This document shows positions 22,038-36,375 of a stretch of 64,000 nucleotides of DNA, piece by piece (position 1 is the first letter of the stretch; each line of letters starts with the position of its first letter). The notes beneath the pieces are model-generated. The model had not been told where the DNA came from. It did no database searches and saw only the letters and a program-made list of their open reading frames with translations. A program made the position numbers and the translations under genes. Source of the DNA: Stenotrophomonas sp. 704A1 (GTDB lineage: Bacteria > Pseudomonadota > Gammaproteobacteria > Xanthomonadales > Xanthomonadaceae); contig NZ_CP130831.1 of the NCBI RefSeq assembly GCF_030549525.1, positions 831,501-895,500 on the forward strand, read 5' to 3'.

Positions 22038-25000
22038 TCACCAGCGGTACGAAAGGCCCAGCTGGCCACTGACATCGTGGAAGCCCATGCCGCCGCTCTG
22101 CCGGCTGAGCTGGCCCCAGCCGCGCCAGCCACCGGACAGGTTCACCTGCACGCCGGCCGCAGCTTCGTAGATGTCGCGCGGCAGTTGCCGGCGCAGGCGT
22201 TCACCGTCCACGGCGATGGCGGCCTCGTTGCCACCGGACCACCAGTTCACTGCCACGAACGGCTGTACCTGGCCCTGTTGCTGCGTCAGCGAACGGCTGT
22301 AGAGGCGTACGCCCAGGCGCGTGGTGGTGCTGTCCTTGTCGCGGCTTTCGACCACGGTGCCGTTGGCCTCGACCACGCGGTCGGCGTCGTAGCGACCGTG
22401 GATCACCTGCAGCTGCGGTTCCAGATAGAGTGCGTGCTGCGCGGTGTGACGCAGGGGCAGCACGTATCCGGCCTCGGCCGAACCGGTCCAGCTGCGCGAG
22501 CGGTAGCGCTCCTTCTGCAGGCCCTCGCCCTGCACGTTGTTGCGGAAGCGGCCGTACTGCAGCCAGCCATCCACATAGGCACCACGTTCCATCCGGGCAT
22601 CCTGCAGCCAGGTCGCATACAGGCCCAGGCTGGTGCCCTCGACCACACCGTGTGCGCGGTAGCTGGTCACCTGCGAGCGGCTGTCGCTGCGCGCGCGGCC
22701 CTGGCCGACCATCACACCGGCCTGCAGCTGGCCGCCCGGATTGGCGCTGAAGCGACGGCCGACACCCAGCAGCACGCTGTTGGCTTCACTGTCCACCTGC
22801 ACCTGTGCGCCGCGGCTGTCCGGCTGGCGGCTGCGCACGTGTGCCCAGGCAATGGCATCACCGCCTTCATCGTTGCTGCCCGCCGGGTCGCCGGCGCGGT
22901 CGTACAGGCTGTGCCGGAACATGCCCAACGCAGTGCTCTGGTTGGCCTGGTACACAGCCGGCTCCGGTCGTTCCACGCGTGGCGGTGCCGGCGGCAACGG
23001 GTCAACGGGCGGATCGACCGGGGGATCGACCGGCGGGTCCACCGGCGGCAGCGGCGGGTTCGGCGGGTCGATCGGCGGGTCGACCGGCGGATCGGGCGGG
23101 TTCGGCGGATCCACCGGCGGTACGTACTCCGAGCGCAGGTACCAGTTGCCGTCGTCCGGACTGGAGACGCCGCCCTTGAACAGGAAGTAGTCATAGGCGC
23201 CGGCCACCGCGCGCCCCTGCAGGCTGAAGGTGGCATCGGACTGGCCGGCCACGCTGATCAGGCGGATGCCTTCGCTGGTCAATGCGCCGGCGCCACCGGC
23301 ATTGCGCACGCTGACGCTGGCGTTGCCACGGCTGTCGCCCTGGATCACCAGCTGGTCACCGCGCGAGGCATCATCGCCGAGCGCGCGGTTGAATACCCAG
23401 CTGCCGCCGTTGCCGACGTAGTCACCGGTGACGGTCAGGGTCTTGAAGTCGTCCGCCGTGGGCGCGACGAAGGCGATGGTGCCGGCATGGTCCAGCGTGC
23501 CAACGCTGGAATCGCCGCGCACGTTCCACTGGCTGCCGCCATCCAGCGCCAGTGTCGCCACCTGGTATCCCGAGTCAGCGCGCAGCGCACCGGTGAACAG
23601 GGTGCCGTTGCGAAGGTTCATCTGCACGTTGGCGGTCGCACTGTCGACCACCACGTCGCCGCTCAGGCGGCTGTTGTCGGCGGTGAACAGGATGTCGGAC
23701 GTGGCAACCGAACTTCCGTCGGTGAACACGGTATCGCTGACCCGCAGCAGGCGGCCACCCTCCAGAGTGCCGGCCTGGCGCGCGACGACGTCGCTGTTGT
23801 TGAAGGTCAGCTCGTGGTTGCTGCCCTGCAGCCAAACGGCCGGACCGTCTTCGGTCTGCAGCTGGCTGTTGTTGAACACCAGGCGGTCCCAGTACGGACC
23901 GAATACGGTGATGTAGGAGCGGTAGGCACCGGAGTTCGCGCCCTGCGCATGGATGTGCAGGTTGTCGGCGCTGAGCCTGGCGGTGTTCATCTGCACGATG
24001 CCGAACGAGGAACTGCCCAGCGTGGTGATCGAGCCGCCGTCCAGCTGTGCATCGGCCGTACTGCCGCCCAGGAATACGCCGCCACCACCGTTGCCGTAGG
24101 TGCTGATGTCCAGGTCCCTGGCGCGGATGCGCGAGTAGGGCGTTGGCGGATTGCTGCCCGAGGCGCGCAGGCCATACACCCCGTCGCCGTGGGTATCGAT
24201 GCTGCCACCGCTGATCGTTGCGGTGCCGCCCCAGACGTCCAGTCCGTGGCCGTAGCCGTTGTCGCCGTACGTGCTGATCCTGGTATCGGTCAGGTCGGCC
24301 AGCGAGTCCGCGCCGGACAGCCAGATGCCGGAAAAACCATCGCGCACGGTGAAGTGGGCGCCGTTGGCGGTCAGCTGGCCCCAGCTGTTGACGTTGACCG
24401 CGTAGCCGCCGACGGTCTCGAAGCGGCCGCCGGTGATGTCGGCGCTGGAGTACACCTTGTTCGCACTGTTGCCGAGCAGGCGGACGCTGCCGCCGTTGCT
24501 GCTGGCGCTGCCGCCCACGGTGCGCAGGGTGCCGCCGTTGCCGATGTCGAAGTAGCCGTTGACCACGTCCACATCGCGCAGCGAGAGCACGCTGTCCGCG
24601 CCACTGGACGACAGGCGCCCGCTGTTGCCGCTGGTCGCTTCGGCGAAGGTCATCGTCAGCGATTCCAGCGACAGCAGCGCACCGCCTTCCGCGTACGCCG
24701 TGCTGTTGGCGCCATTGCTGATGGTGGTTCGGGCGACATGCAGTTCGCTGCCACGCCCGGTGGCATACAGCGCATGCCCGCCGCTGCTCACGCTGCCGCC
24801 CTGCAGCCAGATCCTGCCACCGCCGGTGGCATTAACCGTGCCGTAGCCGGAGACGTTCCGGTAGGCGTCGATGACCAGACCGTTGGCGTGGATCTCGCTG
24901 CCGGTACCCGTGGCGTTCAACGCATAGGCGACGTTGGCGCTGCCATTGCCGAGCTGGAGGTGACCACCCTCGATCAGCACGCTGCCCCCTGCGGAGGCCT

Positions 25001-25289
25001 GCACGCCGCTGCCCCCGCCAGTGATCTCGATGCGGCTGCCATCGATGAAGGCAGTGCTGCCGACGCCGTTCACGTCCAGCGCGAAACCGCTGCCGGCATG
25101 CTGCAGCGTATCGGAGGCATCGAGCTGCAGGGAGCCGCCATCGACGACCTTCAGCGGCCCCTGCAGTTCGCCCGCGTGGGCCGGCAATACGGCCCACAGC
25201 GCACTGGCGAGCAGGCTGGGAATCAGGGGATGGCGCGCCACGCGCGCGCAGGCAGGCTCACGGCGGCGCCGTGGGGGGGAGGCGTTCAT
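22038..25289 (-). CDS. Autotransporter adhesin (type Va) with beta-helical passenger
   Basis: 1083 aa from the ATG at 25289, with AGGAAT upstream. A long basic N-terminus and signal peptide (SLLASALWAVLPAHAGE) lead into a passenger rich in Gly/Ser/Asn/Asp with repeated short strands (GSGVQASAGGSVLIEGGHLQL; SGGHALYATGRGSELHV), the look of a right-handed beta-helix of the pertactin class. A proline-aspartate linker of PPVDPP-type repeats (about residues 723-769) precedes the outer-membrane barrel. The barrel ends in GLSYRW with the terminal aromatic residue needed for BAM recognition. No protease or lipase motif is seen, so adhesion or biofilm formation is inferred. It is the last gene of the signalling locus. 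Confidence 0.9.
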   Translation of the reverse strand: MNASPPRRRREPACARVARHPLIPSLLASALWAVLPAHAGELQGPLKVVDGGSLQLDASDTLQHAGSGFALDVNGVGSTAFIDGSRIEITGGGSGVQASAGGSVLIEGGHLQLGNGSANVAYALNATGTGSEIHANGLVIDAYRNVSGYGTVNATGGGRIWLQGGSVSSGGHALYATGRGSELHVARTTISNGANSTAYAEGGALLSLESLTMTFAEATSGNSGRLSSSGADSVLSLRDVDVVNGYFDIGNGGTLRTVGGSASSNGGSVRLLGNSANKVYSSADITGGRFETVGGYAVNVNSWGQLTANGAHFTVRDGFSGIWLSGADSLADLTDTRISTYGDNGYGHGLDVWGGTATISGGSIDTHGDGVYGLRASGSNPPTPYSRIRARDLDISTYGNGGGGVFLGGSTADAQLDGGSITTLGSSSFGIVQMNTARLSADNLHIHAQGANSGAYRSYITVFGPYWDRLVFNNSQLQTEDGPAVWLQGSNHELTFNNSDVVARQAGTLEGGRLLRVSDTVFTDGSSVATSDILFTADNSRLSGDVVVDSATANVQMNLRNGTLFTGALRADSGYQVATLALDGGSQWNVRGDSSVGTLDHAGTIAFVAPTADDFKTLTVTGDYVGNGGSWVFNRALGDDASRGDQLVIQGDSRGNASVSVRNAGGAGALTSEGIRLISVAGQSDATFSLQGRAVAGAYDYFLFKGGVSSPDDGNWYLRSEYVPPVDPPNPPDPPVDPPIDPPNPPLPPVDPPVDPPVDPPVDPLPPAPPRVERPEPAVYQANQSTALGMFRHSLYDRAGDPAGSNDEGGDAIAWAHVRSRQPDSRGAQVQVDSEANSVLLGVGRRFSANPGGQLQAGVMVGQGRARSDSRSQVTSYRAHGVVEGTSLGLYATWLQDARMERGAYVDGWLQYGRFRNNVQGEGLQKERYRSRSWTGSAEAGYVLPLRHTAQHALYLEPQLQVIHGRYDADRVVEANGTVVESRDKDSTTTRLGVRLYSRSLTQQQGQVQPFVAVNWWSGGNEAAIAVDGERLRRQLPRDIYEAAAGVQVNLSGGWRGWGQLSRQSGGMGFHDVSGQLGLSYRW

Positions 25290-25517
25290 GCTGGTGGATT
25301 CCTGTGGCAGGGCGCAGCACGGCTGCGCGATCTGACGCGGCGGAGCCGCATCGCTGCGGAACACCCCGTGATGACCGCTTCTGGCGTCATCGGGTGTCCG
25401 TCCCACCACGGCTGCGCGGCGACCGTTGACAGGCGCACCGTGGGGGGTGCGTCCAGACTAGAAATCAGCCCCGTCCTATGGAATCAGACGGTTCCTAAAG
25501 CAGGGGGCAGGCCGTAC
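25290..25517 (-). promoter_or_regulatory. Autotransporter upstream region
   Basis: 228 bases between the response-regulator stop and the autotransporter start. It holds two copies of the 21-bp motif (25461-25500, annotated separately) and, directly beside them on the minus strand, a TAGTCT hexamer (25455-25460) that could be the -10. If so, the leader would be about 160 bases long. No ORF is evident. Confidence 0.5.
25461..25500 (-). promoter_or_regulatory. Tandem regulator-binding motif, two copies
   Basis: On the plus strand, GAAATCAGCCCCGTCCTATGG (25461-25481, split here: GAAATCAG, CC, CCG, TCCTA) and GGAATCAG-ACGGT-TCCTAAAG (25480-25500). Both follow GRAATCAG, M, C, three free bases, then TCCTA, and start 19 bases apart. 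The same motif occurs once before the hybrid kinase gene at 33464. Read on the minus strand the core is TAGGA, reminiscent of NarL/RcsB/BvgA-class half-sites. The LuxR-type regulator encoded just upstream is the obvious candidate ligand; that is inference. Confidence 0.6.
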
Positions 25518-26159
25518 TCACCCGAACAGAGAGGCCTGCAGGCAGTACTCGATCAGGGCCTGGTCGCTGTCCACGCCCAGTTTGCGCATCGCGCTGATCT
25601 TCTGCGTACTGACGGTCTTGGTGCTGCGCTGCAGCTGGCGGGCGATATCACCCACGCTCATGCCGCCGGTGAACAGCCGGATCACCTCCAGCTCCCGGGG
25701 CGACAGCCGTTCGAGCACCGCCGCGGCATCGGCGGGTGCGGCGGCGGCCACCGGCATCAGCCCGGCAGGCCGGTAGGTGCGATCGGCCAGCACCGTGCGC
25801 AGGGCCTGCACCAGGCTGCCCAAGCCGTGGCTCTTGAGCACCACGCCACCGGCCCCTGCGGCATACATCGCCGCCACCAGTGACGGGTTGGACACCATCG
25901 TCAGGACCAGCAGGGGGGTGTCGGGAAAACTGCGGTGCAGGAACGAGATCAGCTTGATGCCATCGCCGAAGCTGTCACCGCCGGGCATGCTGTAGTCGGT
26001 GATCACCGCGTGCGGCCGGGTGCTGGCCATCAGCTCGACCAGGGTTGCCGGATCTGCGGCCTCGCCGACGATCTCAAGGTCCAGCTCGCCGGCCAGCACA
26101 TCGCGGATGCCGGCAAGCACGATCGGATGGTCATCAGCGATGAGGATGCGGGTGGTCAT
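25518..26159 (-). CDS. LuxR/NarL-family response regulator
   Basis: 213 aa. The receiver domain has the acidic pair at residues 9-10 (ILIADDHPIV), the phospho-acceptor Asp55 in VITDYSMPGGD, and the lysine in GGVVLKSHG. The LuxR-type helix-turn-helix is at about residues 148-205 (LSPRELEVIRLFTGGMSVGDIARQL followed by STKTVSTQKISAMRKLGV). The layout and wording resemble RcsB, EvgA, BvgA and RocA-type regulators, which act with Hpt-containing hybrid kinases. It overlaps the upstream kinase gene by four bases, so the two are cotranslated and are probably cognate partners. Confidence 0.93.
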   Translation of the reverse strand: MTTRILIADDHPIVLAGIRDVLAGELDLEIVGEAADPATLVELMASTRPHAVITDYSMPGGDSFGDGIKLISFLHRSFPDTPLLVLTMVSNPSLVAAMYAAGAGGVVLKSHGLGSLVQALRTVLADRTYRPAGLMPVAAAAPADAAAVLERLSPRELEVIRLFTGGMSVGDIARQLQRSTKTVSTQKISAMRKLGVDSDQALIEYCLQASLFG

Positions 26160-29100
26160 GGGGATGTCGGGGGGCTGGAAGAGGAGGAGGGCCCGCGCTG
26201 GGCCAGCGGCTCAAGCAGGCGCTGCAGCCGCTGCCTGAACCCGGCCAGCGCCGCGTGCAGCGCAGGCAGGCGTTCTCCGCCGGCGATCTGCTGCTCGATC
26301 TGCTCGCCGTTGGCCACCAGTGCCGGTGCATCGACGATCACCAGCGCGCCACGGATGCGATGCAGCACCTGTGCCACCCGTGCGGGCGCCTGGTCGTCGA
26401 TCGCGCGCTGCAGGCTGTCCAGGTCGGCCTGCATGGTCTGCAGGAACAGGGTCTGCATGGTGTCCGGCACCCGCAGCGGAGGGTCGACCTGCACGGCTTC
26501 TGCGCGGGCCGGGGGTTCCGGTGCAGGTGCGGCCACCTGCGCCAGAACACGCTGCAGCGCTTCCAGCGTGATCGGTTTGACCAGTACGCCCTGCATGCCT
26601 GCGTCGTAGCAGCGCTGCCGTTCGGTCGGGTCGGCGTTGGCGGTAGCGCCATGGATCGGGACGCCCACCCCGCGTGCACGCAGCGCGCGCGCCAGCCCAT
26701 ACCCATCCAGCCCGGGCATGTTGAGATCGGTCAGTACCAGCGCGAAGGGCCGCTGCTGCCAGTAGCCGAGCGCCTCGTTGCCATCACTGGCGACCACCGC
26801 GTGGCAGCCGAGCTGTTCCAGCTGGCCGCGCAGGATCGCCTGGTTGATCGGATTGTCCTCGGCCACCAGCACATGCAGGCCAAACCTGCGCGGTACCGGC
26901 AGGTGCCCGCGGGCATCGGCCGGCAGCGGCCGTCCGCTGGCTGCGGCCAGCGCCACCACGATGGCGTCCAGCCGGTGCAGGCCGACCTGCCAATGGCCCT
27001 GCACCGGCTGCGGCTGCATTCCGCCGTCGCGGCAGGCGACGACCTGCGGCCCACTGCAGTCGGGTGTGCCCTCGTCGAGCACCAGATCGAGCATCACCGT
27101 CGCCGGATCGCACAGTTCGCTGTCCTCGCGATGCAGGCTGGCCTGCGCGCCGCGCTGCTGCAGCCGCTCGCAGATCGACTGGGCGAATTCGCGCACGCCG
27201 CCGCGCACCTGTACCGCCAGCGCTGGCGGCAACCGTGGCGGCGGCGCCTGCAGGGGATCGGATGGCGCCGGCGGCAGTGGCAGCTCAACGCTGAAGCTGC
27301 TGCCCAGGCCACTCTCGCTGACCACCCGCAACTGGCCCTGCATCAGCGCCACCAGGTGCGCGCAGATGGCCAGCCCCAGCCCGGTACCGCGCATCGCATC
27401 GGTTCCCGGGTTGGCCTGGAAGAAGGGTTCGAACAGGTGCGCCTGGTGTTCACCGGCAATGCCGATGCCGGTATCGGCCACCTGCCAGCGCAGCCCTGGG
27501 CGCCCGTGCACGTCCTGCGCGGCCAGACGCACCACCACGCGCCCGCTGTCGGTGAACTTCAGCGCGTTGCTGATCAGGTTGTTGAGGATCTGGCGGATGC
27601 GGGCCGCGTCGCCGCTGACGGCAGAGGGCACGTCGGCATCGATGCACGCATAGAACTGCAGGCCCTTGTGCGCCGCTGCGGCCGCATAGGACTCCAGCGC
27701 ATCCTCGGTCAGCCGCACCGGATCGAACGGGCCCGGTTCCAGGCTCAACTGGCCGGCCTCGGCCTTGCTGACGTCCAGGATGTCGCTGATCAGCTGCATC
27801 AGTGTCGAAGAAGAACGCTGGATGGTACCCAGGTAGTCCTGCTGCCGTGCGTCCAGCGGGGTCAGGCCGAGCAGTTCCAGCGTGCCGAGCACGCCGTACA
27901 GCGGTGTGCGGATCTCGTGGCTCATGGTGGCCAGGAACTGGCTCTTGGCCCGGTTGGCCTGGTCGGCCGCGCGCCGCGCCTGCTGCAGCACCTGTTCTGC
28001 CTCGTGCTGGCTGCTGAGGTCGATGAACAGGCACAGCACGGCAGGTTCGCCGCGATAGCGCGCTGCTGTCGCGGTGATCAGCAGGTGGCGGCTGTCCGGC
28101 GTGGTGTAGGCCAGCCCATCGCCCACCGGGGTGCGACCGGCCGACAGCACGCTGCGCCGCCAAGGGCCATGCCAGCCGCCGTCATCGTGGTCTTCGCCCA
28201 GCCAGCGCCGCGCCAGCGCGTTGTCCAGCAGCACGCGCCCGTCGCTACGCCGCAGCAGGCACAGGCCGATCGGTGCGTTGTCGAGGATGGTGCGGCTGAA
28301 CGCCTCGCTTTCCAGCAGCCGTGCATGGTTGCGACGCAACGGCTCGATCACCGAACGCCGGTAGGCGCGCAGGATCAGGACGCCACCGATGGCCAGCAGC
28401 AACGCCACCGCGACACTGCCCAGCAGCGGCCCGCGCGGATGCTGGAACACCTGCTGCCAGCCCACGTGGTACACCGCCAGCCAGCCCCGCTCGCTGTGCA
28501 TGCGGAACACCAGGCCATCGCGGCCGGCCTGCCAGGCCGGACCGTTGCGCCGCGCATCATCGGCATCACCCAGCAGCAGCCGGCCACCGCCATCAAACAG
28601 TGACAGGCGCTCGAACACTGCCGTTCCCATCACCTGCCGGTAGTCATCGACGCGTCCAGGGTCGAGCAGGCAGGCCAGGGCGGCCAGCGAGTCCTCGCTG
28701 CGCTCGCCCCACAGCCGTGCATCCTGCGGTGCATGGGCGATGGTCAGCAGCCGGGTCTGCCCGTCGCGCCACGCCACCGGCGCCCAGATGATGTTGCCGC
28801 GGCGCAGCGCGGGGCGTTCGCGCAGCACCTGGTGGATCGCGGCCAGGGCCGGCTGCAGGTGGTGCGGGCTGCTCTGACCGGCATCGCTGGCGGAGGTCTG
28901 CAGGGGAGCGAGCAGGCCGCGCTGGCCCAGGCCATCCACCAGCAGGCACTGCGGCGGCGGGAAGCGCGATGCAGCCCAGAACGCGCCATGGAAGCGCAGG
29001 AAGCGGTCACCCAGTTCGGCCGGCGCTGCGGACGCGTCATCGCCGCTGCCGATCTGCGCGAAATTGGCGAACAGCGGGCCACCCTGCGGCGCGCTGCCGC

Positions 29101-29359
29101 TGTCGGCCACCGCCTGCCCGCGGCTGCCGACATCGTGAAGCCGCCATTGGCGCAGGAAGCGTTCCTGTTCCTGCAAGGTGCCATCGAGCCGCCGGAAGTG
29201 GTAGCGGATCTTGCTCTGTTCTTCGTTGAACAGCTGGCTGCCGGTGGAGAGCAGCAGGCCGGCCTGCAGCGTTGCCAGCACCACCACGCCGATCAGCAGG
29301 GCATGCACGCGCAGGGAACGGCGAGCGAGTCGGCGTACGGGAGCGGCCTCGGCCGGCAT
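26156..29359 (-). CDS. Unorthodox hybrid sensor histidine kinase (HK-REC-Hpt)
   Basis: 1067 aa. TM1 (~residues 18-40) and TM2 (~310-333) flank a ~270-residue periplasmic sensor with no recognised fold. A PAS-like region ([15 protein letters not shown] type) follows. HisKA has the phospho-acceptor His481 in [14 protein letters not shown], and HATPase_c shows [12 protein letters not shown] and [16 protein letters not shown] has the acceptor Asp878 in [13 protein letters not shown], and the Hpt domain has His1000 in LHRIRGAL. The domain order matches BvgS/EvgS/RocS phosphorelay kinases. It overlaps the LuxR-type regulator gene downstream. A 125-base gap separates it from the EAL gene. Confidence 0.93.
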
Positions 29360-29484
29360 GTCAGGTCTCGGAGCGGGAATCGTCGGTGGTGGGTGGAAGG
29401 GCCCCGGAGTGCGGCGCGGGCGGCTGCAACGACAGGATCGTCAATGCCGTTTGAGGGGATTGTGAAGCCTTTCCACCGCCGCTG

Positions 29485-30702
29485 TCAGCGCGATGCAGCG
29501 TGGGCCCCGGCGCTGACCGGCGGGGCGGGATCTTCGTCCAGCAGCCGGGTGAAGTCGTCCGACGGCAGCGCCTGCGAGATCAGGAAGCCCTGCACCTGGT
29601 TGCAGCCCAGCTGCCGCAGCGCGGCCAGGTCGGCATCACTTTCCACGCCCTCGGCGACGATGGTCAGGCCCAGCTGGTTGGCCAACGCGATCACCGTGGA
29701 CAAGGTCAGGTGCAGTGCCGGATCGCGCGCACAGCCGCTGACCAGCGCGCGATCGATCTTGACCTCGGTGAAGGGCGTATTGACCAGGTTGTGCACCGAG
29801 CTCAGGCCCTGGCCGAAGTCATCCTGGGCCAGGCCGAAGCCCTTCATGCGCAGGCGGCATGCACCCGCGTAGAAATCGCTGACATGGCGGGTGGTGCTGT
29901 TCTCCATCAGCTCGAAGCACAGATCGGCCGGATGGCCGCCCGCAGCGAGCGTCAGTGCAAGCAGTTCGTCGGGCAGGTCGGACTGCTCCAGCAGGTGCGG
30001 CGGCAGGTTGATCGACACCGGCACGCGGAAGCCCTGCGCGCGCCAGCGTGCCTGCGCCTGGATGCTGGCCTTGAGCATCGCGCGCAGCAGCTCGCCCTCC
30101 AGGCCATGACGGCACAGCGCCGGCAGGAAACTGCCCGGCGCCAGCGTGCCCAGCTGTGGGTGGCGCCAGCGCACCAGCGCCTCAGCGGCGACCACGCGGC
30201 CGGTCTGCAGCGACTTCTTCGGCTGGAACCAGGCGGTCAGACTGCCATCGGCGAGAGCCTGCCGCAGCTGCGCTTCATCCGGCTCGGGGGCCAGCGCCGC
30301 CGGGCCCGCCCGCGCCGCCGCAGGAGCCTGGGCCACCACATCGAACAGCGTTTCAACGTCGCTGGCGGTGACCGGCTTGGACAGCAGGCCGACCACCTCC
30401 AGCCCCAGCGATTCGGCCATCAGCCGGGCCGAACTCATCATCCGCCGCGACGCCGCGCTGACCACTGCCAGACGTGGCGGCCGCGGCTGCGCGGCCAAGG
30501 CCTGGATGAACTGGATGCCATCCTGGCCCGGCATCAGCAGGTCGCTCACCACCAGGTCGTAGATCTGGCAGGCACACAGGGCGATCGCCGCATCGACGTC
30601 TTCGCAGGCATCGACCTGCACGCCGGCGCGCGCGCTGAACAGATTGACGAGATAGCCGCGCTGGAACGGCTGGTCTTCCAGGATCAGGACGCGCTGGGTC
30701 AT
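29485..30702 (-). CDS. Response regulator with EAL domain (cyclic-di-GMP phosphodiesterase, RocR-like)
   Basis: 405 aa. The N-terminal receiver has Asp54 in LVVSDLLMPGQDG and the lysine of LLSKPVTASD. The C-terminal EAL domain begins near residue 145. Catalytic motifs look complete: AEALVRWRHP, VSINLPPHLL (Asn ligand), FELMENS (Glu ligand), AQDDFGQGLSSV (double Asp), VKIDRALV (Lys), TIVAEGVES (Glu) and QGFLISQAL. It should therefore hydrolyse c-di-GMP under control of phosphorylation. REC-EAL order with an intact active site matches RocR and PvrR of Pseudomonas aeruginosa. The start overlaps the stop of the preceding kinase gene by four bases. Confidence 0.92.
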   Translation of the reverse strand: MTQRVLILEDQPFQRGYLVNLFSARAGVQVDACEDVDAAIALCACQIYDLVVSDLLMPGQDGIQFIQALAAQPRPPRLAVVSAASRRMMSSARLMAESLGLEVVGLLSKPVTASDVETLFDVVAQAPAAARAGPAALAPEPDEAQLRQALADGSLTAWFQPKKSLQTGRVVAAEALVRWRHPQLGTLAPGSFLPALCRHGLEGELLRAMLKASIQAQARWRAQGFRVPVSINLPPHLLEQSDLPDELLALTLAAGGHPADLCFELMENSTTRHVSDFYAGACRLRMKGFGLAQDDFGQGLSSVHNLVNTPFTEVKIDRALVSGCARDPALHLTLSTVIALANQLGLTIVAEGVESDADLAALRQLGCNQVQGFLISQALPSDDFTRLLDEDPAPPVSAGAHAASR

Positions 30703-33464
30703 GCGGGGTCTCCTTGGCGGACGGCGGAAAGCGCCTGGCGCAGGCGTGCGATATCGATCGGTTTGCTCAGGTAGCCCTGCATGCCACTGGCCAGGCAGCG
30801 CTCACGCTCTTCGGCGGTGGCATTGGCGGTGGCACCGATCACCGGCAGTGACACGCCCTCGGCGCGCAGGCGTCGCGCCAGTGCGTGGCCATCCATGCGC
30901 GGCATGTTGATGTCGGTGACGATCAGGTCGAAGTCGCGGGTCTGGCAGCGCTGCAGCGCCTCGACGCCGTCCTGCGCGAGTTCCACCTCGCAGCCGAGCG
31001 CCTGCAGCTGTTCGGCCAGGATCACCCGGTTGATCGGATTGTCTTCCACGGCCAGCACCCGCAGTCCCAGCGGCACCGGCTGTACATCGTGCGCCGACGC
31101 CGGCAGCAGCGTGCAGTGCTGCTGCTGGCGCGCGATGGCCAGGCCGATCGCGGTCATGCCATGCAGGGTCACCAGCAGGGCGCCATCGGCGGCCGGCGTC
31201 GGCTGGTCGCCGCCGTCCACCGAGGCCAGTACCCGCGGCCCGTCCCATGCCAGCGGCAGGTCCGCTTCTGCATCCAGCAGGATGGCGCCGGTCTGGTCGA
31301 GCAGGCGCGGATCGCCCTGCAGCGCCTGCGCACTGGCACCCCAGCGCTGCAGCCAGCCGCAGGCACTGTCGACCAGTTCGCGGTCGCGGCCACGTACATA
31401 CACCGGCGGCTCGGGCAGCAGCGGCGGTCCATCCTCGGCCGCCGCCACCACCGGCAACGGCAGGCGCACGGTGAAGCTGCTGCCCAGCCCCGGCTCGCTG
31501 ACCACCCGCAGTTCGCCGCTCATCAGCCGCACCAGCCGGTCGCTGATCGACAGGCCCAGGCCGGTGCCCTGGGCACTGGCCGTACCGCGGACCTGGCGGA
31601 ACGGTTCGAACAGGCGTGCCTGTTCTTCGGCGGCGATGCCCGCGCCGGTGTCCGTGACCTGCCAGGCCAGCACGCTCGATTCGCCCTCGCGCTGCACCAG
31701 CCGCGCCCGCAGCACGATCCGCCCATGGTCGGTGAACTTGATGGCGTTGCTGAGCAGGTTGCCCAGCACCTGGCGGATCCGGTCGGCGTCGCCCAGCACC
31801 CGCGTCGGCAGGCGCGGGTCGGTGCACACCAGTGCCTGCAGGCCCTTGCGCGTGGCGGCGGCGGCGAAGCTGCGCAGTACGCTCTCGGACAACTCGCGCG
31901 GCGAGAACGATGCCGGTTCCAGGCTCAGCTGGCCCGATTCGATCTTCGACACGTCCAGTACGTCGCTGATCAGCTGCAGCAGCACCGACGACGAACTCTC
32001 GATGGTGCGCAGGTACTGCGACTGGCGCGCGTCCAGCGCGGTATGGCCCAGCAGTTCCAGCGTACCGAGCACACCGTACAGCGGGGTGCGGATCTCGTGG
32101 CTCATGGTGGCCAGGAACGCGCTCTTGGCCTGGTTGGCCGCATCGGCGGCCTGTCGCGCCGACGACAGCGCCGCCTGCGCCTGGCGGTGCCGCGAGATGT
32201 CATGGAACACGCACAGCAGCACATCGTCGTCCTGGTAGCGGCACGCCGCATGCAGCACCTGCAGCTGGCGGCCGTCGCGCGCGGTGAACTCCAGGCTGCG
32301 TCCGCGCTCGCCGGCGTGGCCGCGCCAGGGTGCCTGCCAGTCGCCGTCCTGTTCCTCTTCGCCCAGCCAGTCGCGCAGCAGCTGGTTGCACAGCAGCAGC
32401 CGACGGTCGCTGCGGCGCAGGACACAGATGCCGACCGGCGCCAGATCGATCACCGTGGAACTGAAATCCAGGCTTTCCAGCAGCCGTCGATGCTGCAGCA
32501 GGGCCGGCTGGATCAACTGCCGGTCCACGCGCCGGCGCAGCAGTCGCAGTGCAAGTCCTGCCAACAGCAGCAACGCGCCGCTGGCCAGCAGCGGCATCGC
32601 CAGATCGCCCAGCAGCAGGCGTGGCGGCAGGTGGTAGACCAGCCGCCAGCCATCGTCGCCGACGCTCTTGACCAGCGCCACGCCGCGTGGAAGTCCAGCG
32701 CTCCACAGCGCGCCGAAGCTGTCATCCTGGCGATGCTGCAGCGTGGTCCAGCCGGCGCTGTCCAGGCGCGGGGCAAGGCTGGACAACGCCGGCTGCCCGT
32801 CACGGTCGAGCAGCGCGTAGCCGCCGATGCCCTGGCCATCGATCATTGCGGCGGCCGCCGCGCCATCCAGCAGCAGGACCAGCCATTGCGCCGGGCGTGG
32901 ACCGGCCTGCACCGGCTGCGCCAGCGCAACGCCGCTGTCGCCAGGCCGCAACCAGTACATCGGGTCCTTGCCACGCAGGCTGCCGCTGCGCGCCTGCAAT
33001 GTCTGCAGCGAGGGCAGGCGGGCAATGTCCACGTCGGCCTGGCCGCCGGCCAGCCAATGCGTACCGCTGGCGTCGACCAGCAGCAGATGGGTCTGCAGCG
33101 CCTGCAGGGTATGTTCGGCACGCGGTGACAGCAGCAGGCGCTGGCCTGCGGTGCCGCCCGGGCCGTCCAGCGGCAGCTGCCGCACCGCCTCGCTGGTCGT
33201 GGCCGCCGGATCGCCGACCACCACCGAGTCGCCGAGGTAGCGCAGCAGGGCTTCGCGCTGGTCGAAGTAGATCTGCGCCCGGTACGCGGCGGCATTCATG
33301 TTGCGGCGATGCGTGGAGATGTCCGCTGTCAACGCGGCCATCAGGTAGAAACCGGTCGCCGCCAGCAGGCACAGGAACACGCACACCGTCAGCCAGCGCA
33401 GCAGCACCGAGGCGGTGGCCGGCGGCGCGGCCAGGGGCAGGGAAGGGCGTGGGAACCGGAACAT
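30699..33464 (-). CDS. Hybrid sensor histidine kinase (HK-REC, no Hpt)
   Basis: 921 aa, first gene of the signalling operon. TM1 (~residues 20-46) and TM2 (~288-311) flank a periplasmic sensor domain. A PAS-like segment (ICVLRRSDRRLLLCNQLL) is followed by HisKA with His456 in [14 protein letters not shown], HATPase_c (GNLLSNAIKFTD; GTGLGLSISDRLV) and a receiver with Asp851 in LIVTDINMPRMDG. The kinase cores of this protein and the 1067-aa kinase are closely similar over HisKA, showing duplication. This one lacks the Hpt domain, so it may pass phosphate through the other kinase's Hpt or directly to the EAL regulator. The 21-bp motif lies 33-53 bases upstream. Confidence 0.92.
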   Translation of the reverse strand: MFRFPRPSLPLAAPPATASVLLRWLTVCVFLCLLAATGFYLMAALTADISTHRRNMNAAAYRAQIYFDQREALLRYLGDSVVVGDPAATTSEAVRQLPLDGPGGTAGQRLLLSPRAEHTLQALQTHLLLVDASGTHWLAGGQADVDIARLPSLQTLQARSGSLRGKDPMYWLRPGDSGVALAQPVQAGPRPAQWLVLLLDGAAAAAMIDGQGIGGYALLDRDGQPALSSLAPRLDSAGWTTLQHRQDDSFGALWSAGLPRGVALVKSVGDDGWRLVYHLPPRLLLGDLAMPLLASGALLLLAGLALRLLRRRVDRQLIQPALLQHRRLLESLDFSSTVIDLAPVGICVLRRSDRRLLLCNQLLRDWLGEEEQDGDWQAPWRGHAGERGRSLEFTARDGRQLQVLHAACRYQDDDVLLCVFHDISRHRQAQAALSSARQAADAANQAKSAFLATMSHEIRTPLYGVLGTLELLGHTALDARQSQYLRTIESSSSVLLQLISDVLDVSKIESGQLSLEPASFSPRELSESVLRSFAAAATRKGLQALVCTDPRLPTRVLGDADRIRQVLGNLLSNAIKFTDHGRIVLRARLVQREGESSVLAWQVTDTGAGIAAEEQARLFEPFRQVRGTASAQGTGLGLSISDRLVRLMSGELRVVSEPGLGSSFTVRLPLPVVAAAEDGPPLLPEPPVYVRGRDRELVDSACGWLQRWGASAQALQGDPRLLDQTGAILLDAEADLPLAWDGPRVLASVDGGDQPTPAADGALLVTLHGMTAIGLAIARQQQHCTLLPASAHDVQPVPLGLRVLAVEDNPINRVILAEQLQALGCEVELAQDGVEALQRCQTRDFDLIVTDINMPRMDGHALARRLRAEGVSLPVIGATANATAEERERCLASGMQGYLSKPIDIARLRQALSAVRQGDPA

Positions 33465-33496
33465 GGCCCCATCCTAGGGAGCGCCTCCACTGCGCC

Positions 33497-33517
33497 GGAA
33501 TCAGCCGTGTCCTAAAA
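33497..33517 (-). promoter_or_regulatory. Regulator-binding motif upstream of the first kinase gene
   Basis: GGAATCAG-CCGTG-TCCTAAAA on the plus strand; 17 of 21 bases match the copy at 25480-25500, and the GRAATCAGNC plus TCCTA anchors keep the same spacing. It ends 33 bases before the start codon at 33464. A second TCCTA with a poor left half lies at 33472-33476, 38 bases (twice the 19-base period) away. Confidence 0.6.
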
Positions 33518-33584
33518 GATGGCCGGGCCTCCCGGGCATCAGGCCAGGCGCGGCTGCCGTTCAGGCAGCAGGAGCCCCGGCACG

Positions 33585-33609
33585 AAAAAGCCCCCGCCGA
33601 AGCGGGGGC
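33585..33609 (-). terminator. Intrinsic terminator of the TonB-dependent receptor gene
   Basis: On the minus strand GCCCCCGC, TTCG loop, GCGGGGGC, then TTTTT (33589-33585). An ideal rho-independent terminator 27 bases after the receptor stop codon; it insulates the receptor from the kinase operon. Confidence 0.92.
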
Positions 33610-33636
33610 CCTGATCGCGTTCCGGGCGGGATCGCC

Positions 33637-36375
33637 TTACAGCGCGCTGCCACCGAACTTGTGGGTGTACTGCAGATTGAGGGTGCGACCCACGGTGTCG
33701 AACCAGGACACGTCGTAGTACGGGTAGGCCGTGTAGGTCCTGTCCTTCGGCGGCATCTTGTTGAACACGTTGACCACCGACAGCGACAGGCGCGAATGGT
33801 CGTCGAAGCGGTACTGCAGCGAGGCGTTGTAGCGGTAGGTCGCTTTGACGTACGGGCTGTCGCCGCTTTCCCAGTCGAACACCTGGTCGTAGCTGTCCGA
33901 GGTCGGCAGCTTGCCCAGCCGCGATCCGTACACGGTGGCCGACCACGCCTCCCGTTCCCAGGTCACGCTCAGGCCGGTCTTGGTGCGCGGGATGTCAAAG
34001 CCGCTGTTGACCGCGAACTGGTCCTCGGTCGGGTCGCCGGCGTAGCGCTGGAAGTCATGCTTCTTCACCCAGGTATGGGTGCCGTTGAAGATGAAGTCGC
34101 CGATGCCGGTCTGCAGGCGGTAGCGCAGGCCCACGTCGATGCCCGCAGTGGACTCGCGGGCCACGTTGATCGGGTTGACGTGCACGCCGTACAGGCGGCC
34201 GTCCTCGCTGCGGGTGACGCGTGCCAGCGCATCGACACAGGTCGGTGAGCCGATGTCGGCATCGCCGAGTCGGCAGTCGGCTTCATCGGCCAGGATCGAA
34301 CGCACGTCCATGTCCTGCACCTGGTCGCGCATGTCGATGTCGAACCAGTCCACCGACAGGTCCAGGCCCGCCGCCGGCGACCACACGAAGCCGGCACTCC
34401 AGGACGTGCTGGTTTCCGGCTCCAGCTGGCGGTTGCCGCTGCGGCTGCGGATCACGTTGCGTTCGTAGTCGGCGCAATCCTCGGCGGCCTCGGCGCGGCA
34501 GGTGTACAGGTCCTCGGCGCTGGTCTCGTCGTTGCCGGGCCCGGCGAACACATAGTGCAGGTCCGGTGCGCGGAACGCGGTGCCATAGGAACCCCGCACC
34601 AGCAGGCTGTCGAGCGGGCGCCATTCCAGGCCGCCGCTCCAGGTGGCCTTGCCGATGGTGTGGCCCGAGTAGCGGTACTGGTCATAGCGGCCAGCCACGC
34701 TCAGGTTGACCGTCTCATGCAGCGGCATGCGCAGTTCGGCAGCGCTGGCCCAGCGGTTGCGCGAGCCCTTGCCGTTCGAATCCTTCCAGCTGTAGTAGTA
34801 GTACTGCGTCGCCAGCGGATCGGGGTTCAGCGAGTACGCCTGCTGGCCGACCTCGACCGTCGCGGCGAAACCGGCGTCGCCGCCGGGCAGACCGAACAGC
34901 GCACCGTTGGTCAGGGTGAACGCTGCGGTTTCGGTGCGCGACTTCGGCGTATAGGTGGTGCGCGCGGCGATCGAATCGTATTCGGCGCGGGTCAGCGGCC
35001 GGTACAGGCGCGACGGGTCGGCGTTGTAGATCGGGAAGCCCTCCTCGTCCTCGCCCAGCTGCGGGCCCAGGAACAGGTCGTTGGCCTTGGCCGCGATGAT
35101 CTGCGGCCAGCTGATCCGTGACTGGTACTGCGAGTGACTCAGCGCGGCCTCGTAGTCCCAGCGGCCGGTCAGCGTGCCCTTGAAGCCGGTGGTGACACTG
35201 AAGGTCTTCTGCGTACTGCGGACCATCGCGTTGCGCAGCCCGCCCATTTCCTCGGGCGAGAACTGGCGCTGCCAGAACTCGATCTCACCGGTGGCTTCGT
35301 TGTTGAAGTAGCCCGATTCGTCGCCGTCGGCCGCCATGCGCCCCCACGAGGTGACATCGCGCATCAACGACATCGTGTGGTAGCCCAGCTGCACGTCGGC
35401 GAACCACTGCTGGCCGTTGTCGAAGTCGTAGCTCAGCGAGGCGTAGCCGTTGGCACCGCGGCGCTTGCTGAGGATGGTGCCGTAGCCGATCGAGCTGTCG
35501 CTGCCGCAGTAGTAGCCGTAGCGCGGACGGAAGGCGCGGTAGGTGCTGCCCTGGTTCTGTCCGGCCAGCGCCTCGCAGGTGGCCGCACCGGGGTCCAGGT
35601 AGTCGTCGTTGTAATCGGTACGCAGGTAGGCGCGGCGCGCGATGCGCGAACCTTCGGTGGGGCCGTCCTGGGTCGAGTCCTGCAGCTCGCGTTCATGGGC
35701 CCACAGCGGCGCCTGCGACTGCAGCTCGACGCTGTACACCGCGTTGAAGTTGCCGCGGCTGAAGCCGCTGGCCAGGCTCATGTCGAACGATTCGCCACCG
35801 CCCTCGGTGGTGGTGCCCATGCGCATGTCGACGGTGGTGCCATCGGCCGTCTTCTTCAGGATGAAGTTGACCACACCGGCGATCGCGTCCGAACCGTAGA
35901 TCGCCGATGCACTGCCGGTCAGCACTTCGATGCGGTCGATCATGCCCAGCGGAATGTTCGACACGTCGGTGAAGTTGCTGCGGCCCTTGAACGGCATCGG
36001 GAAATCGGCGATGCGGCGGCCATTGACCAGCACCAGGGTGTGGTTCGGGCCCAGTCCACGCAGATCGACCTGCTGGGCGCCCGGCGAGAAATCGGCGCCG
36101 CCGGAGGATTGCTGGCTCTGCGTCTCGCCGCCGTTCTGGGTCATCGCCCGCAGCACATCGGGAACGGTGGTGAAGCCGCTCGAACGGATCTGCTCTGCAT
36201 TGATGACGGTGATCGGGGCCGGGCCCTCCACCTGGGCCCGCGGAATGCGCGAGCCGGTCACCTGCACCGCATCCAGTTGTTGAACCGAAGAGGAGCCGGG
36301 TGCCTGGGCAGCCGCCGACGCAGCAACGCCCATCAACGCCAGCTGGATCGACCACGCCATCGCCTGTCTACGCAT
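33637..36375 (-). CDS. TonB-dependent outer-membrane receptor
   Basis: 912 aa from the ATG at 36375 (MRRQAMAWSIQLALMGVAAS), which yields a normal signal peptide; the longer frame adds no family sequence. The plug domain runs from LDAVQVTGSRIPRAQ through ITVINAEQIRSSGFTTVPDVLRAM and VDLRGLGPNHTLVLVNGRRI to IEVLTGSASAIYGSDAIAGVVNFILKK. The barrel follows and ends in LQYTHKFGGSAL. This is the subgroup of receptors that import large organic substrates, common in Caulobacter and Xanthomonadaceae. It is divergent from the cyanophycinase gene, so uptake of peptide products is plausible but not shown. Confidence 0.92.
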   Translation of the reverse strand: MRRQAMAWSIQLALMGVAASAAAQAPGSSSVQQLDAVQVTGSRIPRAQVEGPAPITVINAEQIRSSGFTTVPDVLRAMTQNGGETQSQQSSGGADFSPGAQQVDLRGLGPNHTLVLVNGRRIADFPMPFKGRSNFTDVSNIPLGMIDRIEVLTGSASAIYGSDAIAGVVNFILKKTADGTTVDMRMGTTTEGGGESFDMSLASGFSRGNFNAVYSVELQSQAPLWAHERELQDSTQDGPTEGSRIARRAYLRTDYNDDYLDPGAATCEALAGQNQGSTYRAFRPRYGYYCGSDSSIGYGTILSKRRGANGYASLSYDFDNGQQWFADVQLGYHTMSLMRDVTSWGRMAADGDESGYFNNEATGEIEFWQRQFSPEEMGGLRNAMVRSTQKTFSVTTGFKGTLTGRWDYEAALSHSQYQSRISWPQIIAAKANDLFLGPQLGEDEEGFPIYNADPSRLYRPLTRAEYDSIAARTTYTPKSRTETAAFTLTNGALFGLPGGDAGFAATVEVGQQAYSLNPDPLATQYYYYSWKDSNGKGSRNRWASAAELRMPLHETVNLSVAGRYDQYRYSGHTIGKATWSGGLEWRPLDSLLVRGSYGTAFRAPDLHYVFAGPGNDETSAEDLYTCRAEAAEDCADYERNVIRSRSGNRQLEPETSTSWSAGFVWSPAAGLDLSVDWFDIDMRDQVQDMDVRSILADEADCRLGDADIGSPTCVDALARVTRSEDGRLYGVHVNPINVARESTAGIDVGLRYRLQTGIGDFIFNGTHTWVKKHDFQRYAGDPTEDQFAVNSGFDIPRTKTGLSVTWEREAWSATVYGSRLGKLPTSDSYDQVFDWESGDSPYVKATYRYNASLQYRFDDHSRLSLSVVNVFNKMPPKDRTYTAYPYYDVSWFDTVGRTLNLQYTHKFGGSAL

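Follow-up and report, generated by a model that had tools for sequence, protein, structure and literature searches.

Introduction

In Stenotrophomonas maltophilia ATCC 13637, the proteins BsmR and BsmT are encoded in a four-gene operon and are co-transcribed (PMC5498567). As reported in 2017 in the main text of that study, BsmT shifted the promoter of its own operon in a gel-shift assay, and its overexpression increased all four transcripts by 6.3- to 198.6-fold (PMC5498567). Here we describe a locus of Stenotrophomonas sp. 704A1 that lies in a stretch of 64,000 nucleotides (NZ_CP130831.1, positions 831,501 to 895,500; below, the window, whose numbering is used unless another source is named). 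It holds a four-gene regulatory operon and an autotransporter adhesin gene, each preceded by the same short motif. We regard it as quite probable that the motif is an RcsB-type operator in two activator-dependent promoters, through which one regulator drives both the operon and the adhesin gene.

The gene order kinase, REC-EAL, kinase, REC-HTH is the same here and in the bsmR operon as described in the main text of PMC5498567, and Asp54 of the published BsmR corresponds to residue D54 of the REC-EAL protein of this locus. A full-length match to the REC-EAL protein was found once per genome in six of six chosen genomes. Gene arrangement, this residue and the uniqueness of the match together make it almost certain that we are dealing with bsmR-bsmT of S. 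maltophilia; the REC-EAL protein of 405 residues is very likely BsmR and its regulator of 213 residues very likely BsmT, and the hybrid kinase of 921 residues is probably the ortholog of DP16_RS18240.

An earlier note on this DNA had proposed that the regulator activates its own operon, which had already been published for its very likely ortholog BsmT (PMC5498567). The main text of PMC5498567 never uses the terms motif, footprint, consensus, box, adhesin or autotransporter. Among the papers searched, it is the only one to name BsmT in connection with Stenotrophomonas. In the accessible text of the P. aeruginosa binding atlas, RcsB occurs only in the reference list (PMC8041468), and the accessible text of the FsnR paper gives no binding sequence (PMC9600515). 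Autoactivation is therefore already known. As far as the literature was searched, supplements and most subscription papers aside, what looks new is the operator and where it sits in the promoter, the promoter layout common to operon and adhesin gene, the adhesin as a further target, and the constancy of the box across the genus and into Pseudomonas.

The motif and its place in two promoters

Pattern search of the window located GRAATCAGMCNNNTCCTA exactly at three positions of the plus strand (25461-25478, 25480-25497 and 33497-33514), where the earlier note had placed it. These are also the only exact matches in the whole genome (one contig of 4,686,432 bases), in which there was no match with one mismatch and 13 with two, compared with 5 at up to two mismatches for the reversed-pattern control. 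Within the window, the four matches with up to three mismatches were not significant (mean of 1.92 in shuffled sequences, 11 of 100 shuffles reaching four). The copies at 25480 and 33497 share 17 of 21 bases, again as had been stated. In the orientation of the genes, the motif reads TTTAGGA-N5-CTGAT, with the core TAGGA-N5-CTGAT, and it marks both ends of the locus in that it precedes the first kinase gene as well as the autotransporter gene.

The operon promoter (33471..33516, minus strand) contains the box TTTAGGACACGGCTGAT(TCC), with the motif at 33497-33514, followed by a spacer and a -10-like CTAGGAT. In the autotransporter promoter (25455..25499, minus strand), the box TTTAGGAACCGTCTGAT(TCC), with the motif at 25480-25497, is followed by an 18-nucleotide spacer and a -10-like CTAGTCT; the second tandem copy (25461..25478, minus strand) lies within this spacer. 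All three copies announced earlier are thus real, but they belong to only two promoters. Their equal standing was ruled out, since among 23 close orthologs (see below), which conserve the 25480 copy, the core of the 25461 copy is absent in 21 and intact in 2, and its TAGGA is intact in 11; the tandem pair is a peculiarity of the window strain and one relative. Positions 25289 and 33464, named earlier as transcript starts, are both start codons.

The promoters were compared in a genus survey of 91 genomes (G and L below are handles for genomes and loci). The distance from the end of the motif to CTAGNNT is 18 nucleotides in adhesin promoters; in operon promoters it is 18 or 19. CTAGNNT is replaced by CTACTCT (G020) or CTACGCT (G053) at adhesin promoters and by ATAGCAT (L115, L116 and L121) at operon promoters. 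By resemblance, CTAGNNT is likely to be a -10 element and, because the motif stands at a set distance before it, we read the motif with considerable confidence as a putative activator site in place of the -35 element.

Conservation of the box

The regulator was detected at E<=1e-55 in 35 of the 91 genomes, in 23 of them at 85-100% identity. These 23 close loci, which include that of the window strain, all have the adhesin gene as well as the genes for both kinases, for the EAL protein and for the regulator. All 46 of their promoters contain an exact core TAGGA-N5-CTGAT, TAGGA starts 49 or 50 bases ahead of the first-kinase start codon in 23 of 23, and the full 18-base pattern is present at both sites with at most two mismatches in every one, so that a loss of the motif from close relatives that keep the locus, as envisaged in the earlier note, was not seen. 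Mean column identity was 1.0 over the ten core columns versus 0.59 (operon) and 0.65 (adhesin) over 57 upstream columns, in an ungapped, motif-anchored alignment that lowers the identity of the flanks; the motif window ranked first across 120 bp at both promoters. A gapped alignment gave the same pattern at the operon promoter, and the adhesin leader was also conserved in parts. At one of the loci (G002, L111), the regulator and EAL genes are each split over two frames, by decay or sequencing error.

The adhesin was found at E<=1e-150 in 28 of the 91 genomes, or in 27 after setting aside G070, in which the match is 41% identical over residues 205-1081 and has neither the regulator nor a nearby box. 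All 27 belong to the 35 genomes with the regulator, and in all 27 the box stands upstream of the adhesin gene (the 23 close loci, L112-L114 and G053). In G053, the adhesin gene has moved across the operon to lie ahead of the first kinase gene, behind a promoter made up of TATTAGGGATCGCCTGATGTC, 18 nucleotides and CTACGCT. This one genome gives the strongest sign that the box goes with the adhesin gene rather than with the mere neighbourhood. In the same genome (L242/L117), the place left empty by the adhesin gene, past the regulator gene, still has a box with a TATTCT -10. Downstream of it we saw a hairpin with a T-run but no gene in the same direction, and the leftover box may drive a small RNA.

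Twelve further genomes have the regulator at 48-62% identity. Inspection by eye revealed a box before the first kinase in 12 of 12, ten of the CTGAT type and two (L122 and L123) with TAGGA-N4-TCCTA palindromes instead. In L112 and L114, both ends of the locus are altered alike (TAGGGATCG-CTGATGT), and this parallel change argues for one reader of both sites. At eight of the twelve diverged loci (L115, L116, L118-L123), the genome is without an adhesin ortholog. Four of the loci (L118-L121, in G072, G010, G018 and G076) are reduced to kinase and regulator, without a match to the EAL protein or the adhesin, and the box is still found before the kinase.

Pseudomonas relatives of the operon, PA7 among them, show 35-56% identity, and 21 of 23 loci have a match to a separate second kinase. 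A related box was found in the first-kinase promoter at 20 of these 23 loci versus 0.22 expected from shuffles; the pattern was devised after viewing these same promoters, and the figure is descriptive rather than blind. The set leaves out L200 and L202 (Achromobacter) as well as L204, in which the first kinase is missing. In Pseudoxanthomonas winnipegensis NML 130738, two bsmR-like genes (L173 and L175), 81% and 78% identical to that of the window, lie about 8 kb apart on one contig.

Specificity of the box

Across the 91 genomes, the exact motif has 16 matches, 14 of them at this locus. With up to one mismatch there are 109 matches in 59 genomes (reversed control, 11), 45 at this locus and 64 elsewhere. 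The composite of box and -10, TTTARGRNNNNNCTGAT-N18-24-TAGNNT, has 58 matches and none in the reversed control, and 55 of the 58 are the promoters of this locus. Without the -10, only exact copies of the motif are specific to the locus, and adding the -10 restores specificity; the many random matches envisaged in the earlier note were not seen with the exact and composite patterns, but at one mismatch most matches lie elsewhere. Genomes positive for the composite make up 30 of the 35 with the regulator and 0 of the 56 others (Fisher p 3e-19).

A looser composite pattern gave 65 matches (control 0), ten of them outside the locus. Four stand before genes of the trimeric-autotransporter type with an ESPR start (two in G020, one each in G065 and G069), three before fimbrial operons (G036, G087 and G052) and two before outer-membrane-type proteins of an unclassified family (G070 and G089); the gene in G085 is unclear. 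Pfam searches covered one gene of the trimeric group (ESPR), two of the fimbrial group (PapD_N and FimA) and one of the two outer-membrane-type genes (no match). The chaperones of G036 and G087 share 94% identity, and no others of this kind were found in the 91 genomes; these two matches were therefore counted as one event. The three CTGAT-type matches outside the locus (G036, G085 and G087) are all in regulator-bearing genomes. The other seven are of the CCGAT type and four of them occur in regulator-less genomes (G052, G065, G070 and G089), so these boxes are probably read by other regulators.

The regulator and its probable mode of action

The earlier note had linked the TAGGA half-site to RcsB, and comparison of the proteins strengthens this link. 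The best relatives of the regulator among solved structures are RcsB entries (E 4.8e-42). In the accessible description of the RcsB-DNA complex, the bases of the half-site TTAGGAA are contacted by K180 and S184, and the residues touching phosphates include T181, S183, Q185, K186 and K187 (PMC5829831). The recognition helix reads RSTKTVSTQKI here versus RSIKTISSQKK in RcsB, with K180, T181, S183, Q185 and K186 kept and S184 replaced by T. When compared with the RcsB-box criterion TARGA-N4-TCYTA, the boxes of the window agree in the left half and have CTGA(T) in the right half; TCYTA right halves were seen only in L122, L123, L182 and L203.

Several points speak against an operator read by the regulator of the operon. 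RcsB K187 is I in the regulator, and the right half CTGAT is a poor inverted repeat of TAGGA. At least four other regulators of this kind at E<=1e-30 are encoded in the same genome (12 of 74 candidates scored), and CCGAT-type boxes are found in genomes without the regulator. Co-occurrence of regulator and box is partly automatic, as sites of one locus are co-inherited, and G002 retains both boxes although its regulator is frame-broken. The sequence TAAGATCCGTCTGATTTC is conserved also in regulator-less genomes, before an unrelated-looking gene and without CTAGNNT. The order of the published operon starts with bsmT in the main text and with DP16_RS18240 in a legend (PMC5498567), and this conflict makes it uncertain from which end of the operon the gel-shift probe came. 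Finally, the literature searched yielded neither expression nor binding data on the adhesin promoter.

The additional regulators, together with the CCGAT boxes of like layout upstream of genes for adhesins, fimbriae and proteins of the outer-membrane type (four of the seven boxes lie in regulator-less genomes), could mean that one or more RcsB-like paralogs read the box instead of the regulator of the operon. We consider this unlikely: CTGAT-type promoters follow the regulator across the survey genomes (30 of 35 versus 0 of 56), the very likely ortholog BsmT shifts the promoter of its own operon according to the main text of PMC5498567, and a related box persists at the same operon in Pseudomonas. 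Alternatively, the regulator might repress the adhesin gene, with a second dimer bound between the first box and the -10 blocking the polymerase, as the second copy in the spacer beside the -10 of the window strain would allow. Against this stand the lack of the core of that copy in 21 of 23 close orthologs, the distance from the first box to the -10, which nearly equals that of the self-activated operon promoter, and the activation of cupD by RcsB in PA14, as far as described in PMC3842833 and PMC2696094, which together make repression improbable. The near-fixed spacing between CTGAT and CTAGNNT would also suit the core promoter of an alternative sigma factor with no activator bound; we hold this to be very unlikely, as about 17 nucleotides of conserved bases are long for a -35 element, the upstream element differs between clades with little change in the -10, and the distant L122 and L123 have TAGGA-N4-TCCTA palindromes. 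Mere chance, with a short word recurring in a GC-rich genome, might be argued from the unremarkable window count at three mismatches and from the one-mismatch matches of the genus, most of which lie outside the locus; it is rejected in view of three out of three exact genome matches at the locus, a composite control of 0 and conservation at 46 of 46 promoters.

For the preferred reading, an operator for the regulator of the operon itself, the following circuit can be envisaged. The hybrid kinase, and then the Hpt domain of the unorthodox kinase, would phosphorylate the RcsB-like regulator, a dimer of which would bind TAGGA-N4/5-CTGA(T) directly upstream of CTAGNNT and recruit RNA polymerase. 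The operon promoter would thereby drive the kinases, the cyclic diguanosine monophosphate (c-di-GMP) phosphodiesterase BsmR and the regulator itself, giving positive feedback, and the second promoter would drive the autotransporter adhesin. The box, its spacing, conservation and co-occurrence with the regulator are observed, as are its presence before a relocated adhesin gene and the homology of the proteins; that the regulator binds precisely these bases and activates the adhesin gene is what we infer, along with the order of the phosphorelay and the -10. For an opportunistic pathogen with a published c-di-GMP switch, the motif is likely the missing operator of that switch, and the neighbouring adhesin becomes a candidate second target.

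Genes and leader of the locus

All five genes lie on the minus strand in the order hybrid kinase, REC-EAL, unorthodox kinase, REC-LuxR and autotransporter, and two of the three pairs of adjacent regulatory genes overlap by 4 nucleotides. The first gene (30699..33464) encodes the HisKA-HATPase-REC hybrid histidine kinase of 921 residues, without a match to Hpt and in a PvrS-like position. It is followed by the PvrR-like REC-EAL response regulator with Asp54 (405 residues; 29485..30702), the RcsC-like unorthodox histidine kinase HisKA-HATPase-REC-Hpt (1067 residues; 26156..29359) and the RcsB-like REC-LuxR/GerE response regulator P0001 (213 residues; 25518..26159). The autotransporter adhesin (1083 residues; 22038..25289) starts at an ATG at 25289 that is conserved in the alignment; the Pfam search at E<=0.001 identified its AC_1 and Pertactin domains only, with no beta-barrel family.

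The leader of the adhesin mRNA (25290-25454, about 165 nucleotides) is fairly conserved and able to fold. Rfam searches over 25100-33700 gave no credible match, the two hits at E 0.67 and 0.82 being far under the gathering scores, and in the fold of 22 of 23 adhesin leaders (the longer leader of L099 was omitted) the covariation term was 0.02, with 4 of 31 pairs altered on both sides in some sequence. A riboswitch or structured leader was set aside because of the Rfam result and the near absence of covariation, and we make no claim about the RNA.

Related boxes elsewhere

We inspected 19 of the 64 matches with up to one mismatch outside the locus. One of them (L007) has CTAGACT at 18 nucleotides; by eye, the other 18 have no CTAGNNT at that distance. 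A one-mismatch copy (L010, G018:C14:81796-81813), in a genome with a regulator homolog at 60%, lies 143 nucleotides ahead of a gene whose product has Fimbrial and MrkD-like receptor domains. In L003, L004, L016, L019 and L027, the RcsB-box-like TAAGATCCGTCTGATTTC, present in nine genomes among the matches listed, precedes one conserved membrane-type gene. The two exact matches outside the locus are located 186 nucleotides before an RHS-repeat gene (L017/L124, G028) and at a site with no gene start downstream (L029/L125, G042).

CCGAT boxes of the form TTTAGGCCGCGTCCGAT..CTAGNAT stand before genes with an ESPR start in L247, L253 and L254 (G020, G065 and G069), and the same layout, with three mismatches to the search pattern, precedes an ESPR-start gene in the genome of the window strain (L249, genome positions 4025697-4025741). 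In L248 (G020:2757760-2757804), a TTTAGGAATTGTCTGAT box with CCAGCAT for CTAGCAT precedes a long unclassified gene whose start resembles a signal peptide. Conserved boxes of the TTTCGGATAARTCCGATAGG or TTTCGTAC type, followed by 18 nucleotides and CTAGNNT, occur in L246 (genome of the window strain, 3162282-3162326) and L251, with one match in each of 10 genomes; at the two loci inspected, a small protein MVITVQ..W.VLDPQ without a Pfam match is encoded downstream.

Across Stenotrophomonas, RcsB-type boxes set at a constant distance from CTAGNNT could form a promoter class that places diverse adhesins, from classical and trimeric autotransporters to chaperone-usher fimbriae, under BsmT-like phosphorelays, with the box travelling with the adhesin and paralogs split between CTGAT and CCGAT. 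We put this forward as a tentative idea, with chances slightly below even.

Comparison with known systems

The BvgASR system of Bordetella combines an unorthodox kinase, a NarL-family regulator, an EAL protein, autotransporter targets and TAGGA-like half-sites; it has one kinase, versus two at this locus. The site of enterobacterial RcsB, as described in the accessible text of PMC5829831, shares with the present box the half-site TTAGGAA and with the present regulator the helix residues K180, T181, S183, Q185 and K186, whereas its right half is an inverted TAGGA or TAAGA in place of CTGAT.

In P. aeruginosa PA14, according to the accessible parts of PMC3842833 and PMC2696094, RcsB requires a site in the cupD1 promoter and raises cupD and pvrR, leading to fimbriae and dispersal together. 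PvrSR/RcsCB and the present locus both comprise an Hpt-less hybrid kinase, an EAL regulator, an Hpt-bearing unorthodox kinase and an RcsB-type regulator, and in both the adhesin genes (cupD in PA14) adjoin the regulatory genes. In PA14, however, these genes encode fimbriae and run in the opposite direction, whereas here an autotransporter gene runs in the same direction as the operon, and here a box also precedes the regulatory operon itself, for which no counterpart is described for PvrSR/RcsCB in those parts of the two papers. The present circuit would couple production of an adhesin to a lowering of c-di-GMP, much like RcsB acting on cupD and pvrR in PA14. If both promoters are switched on together, one signal would lead to adhesin production and biofilm dispersal, the paradox described for RcsB in P. 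aeruginosa.

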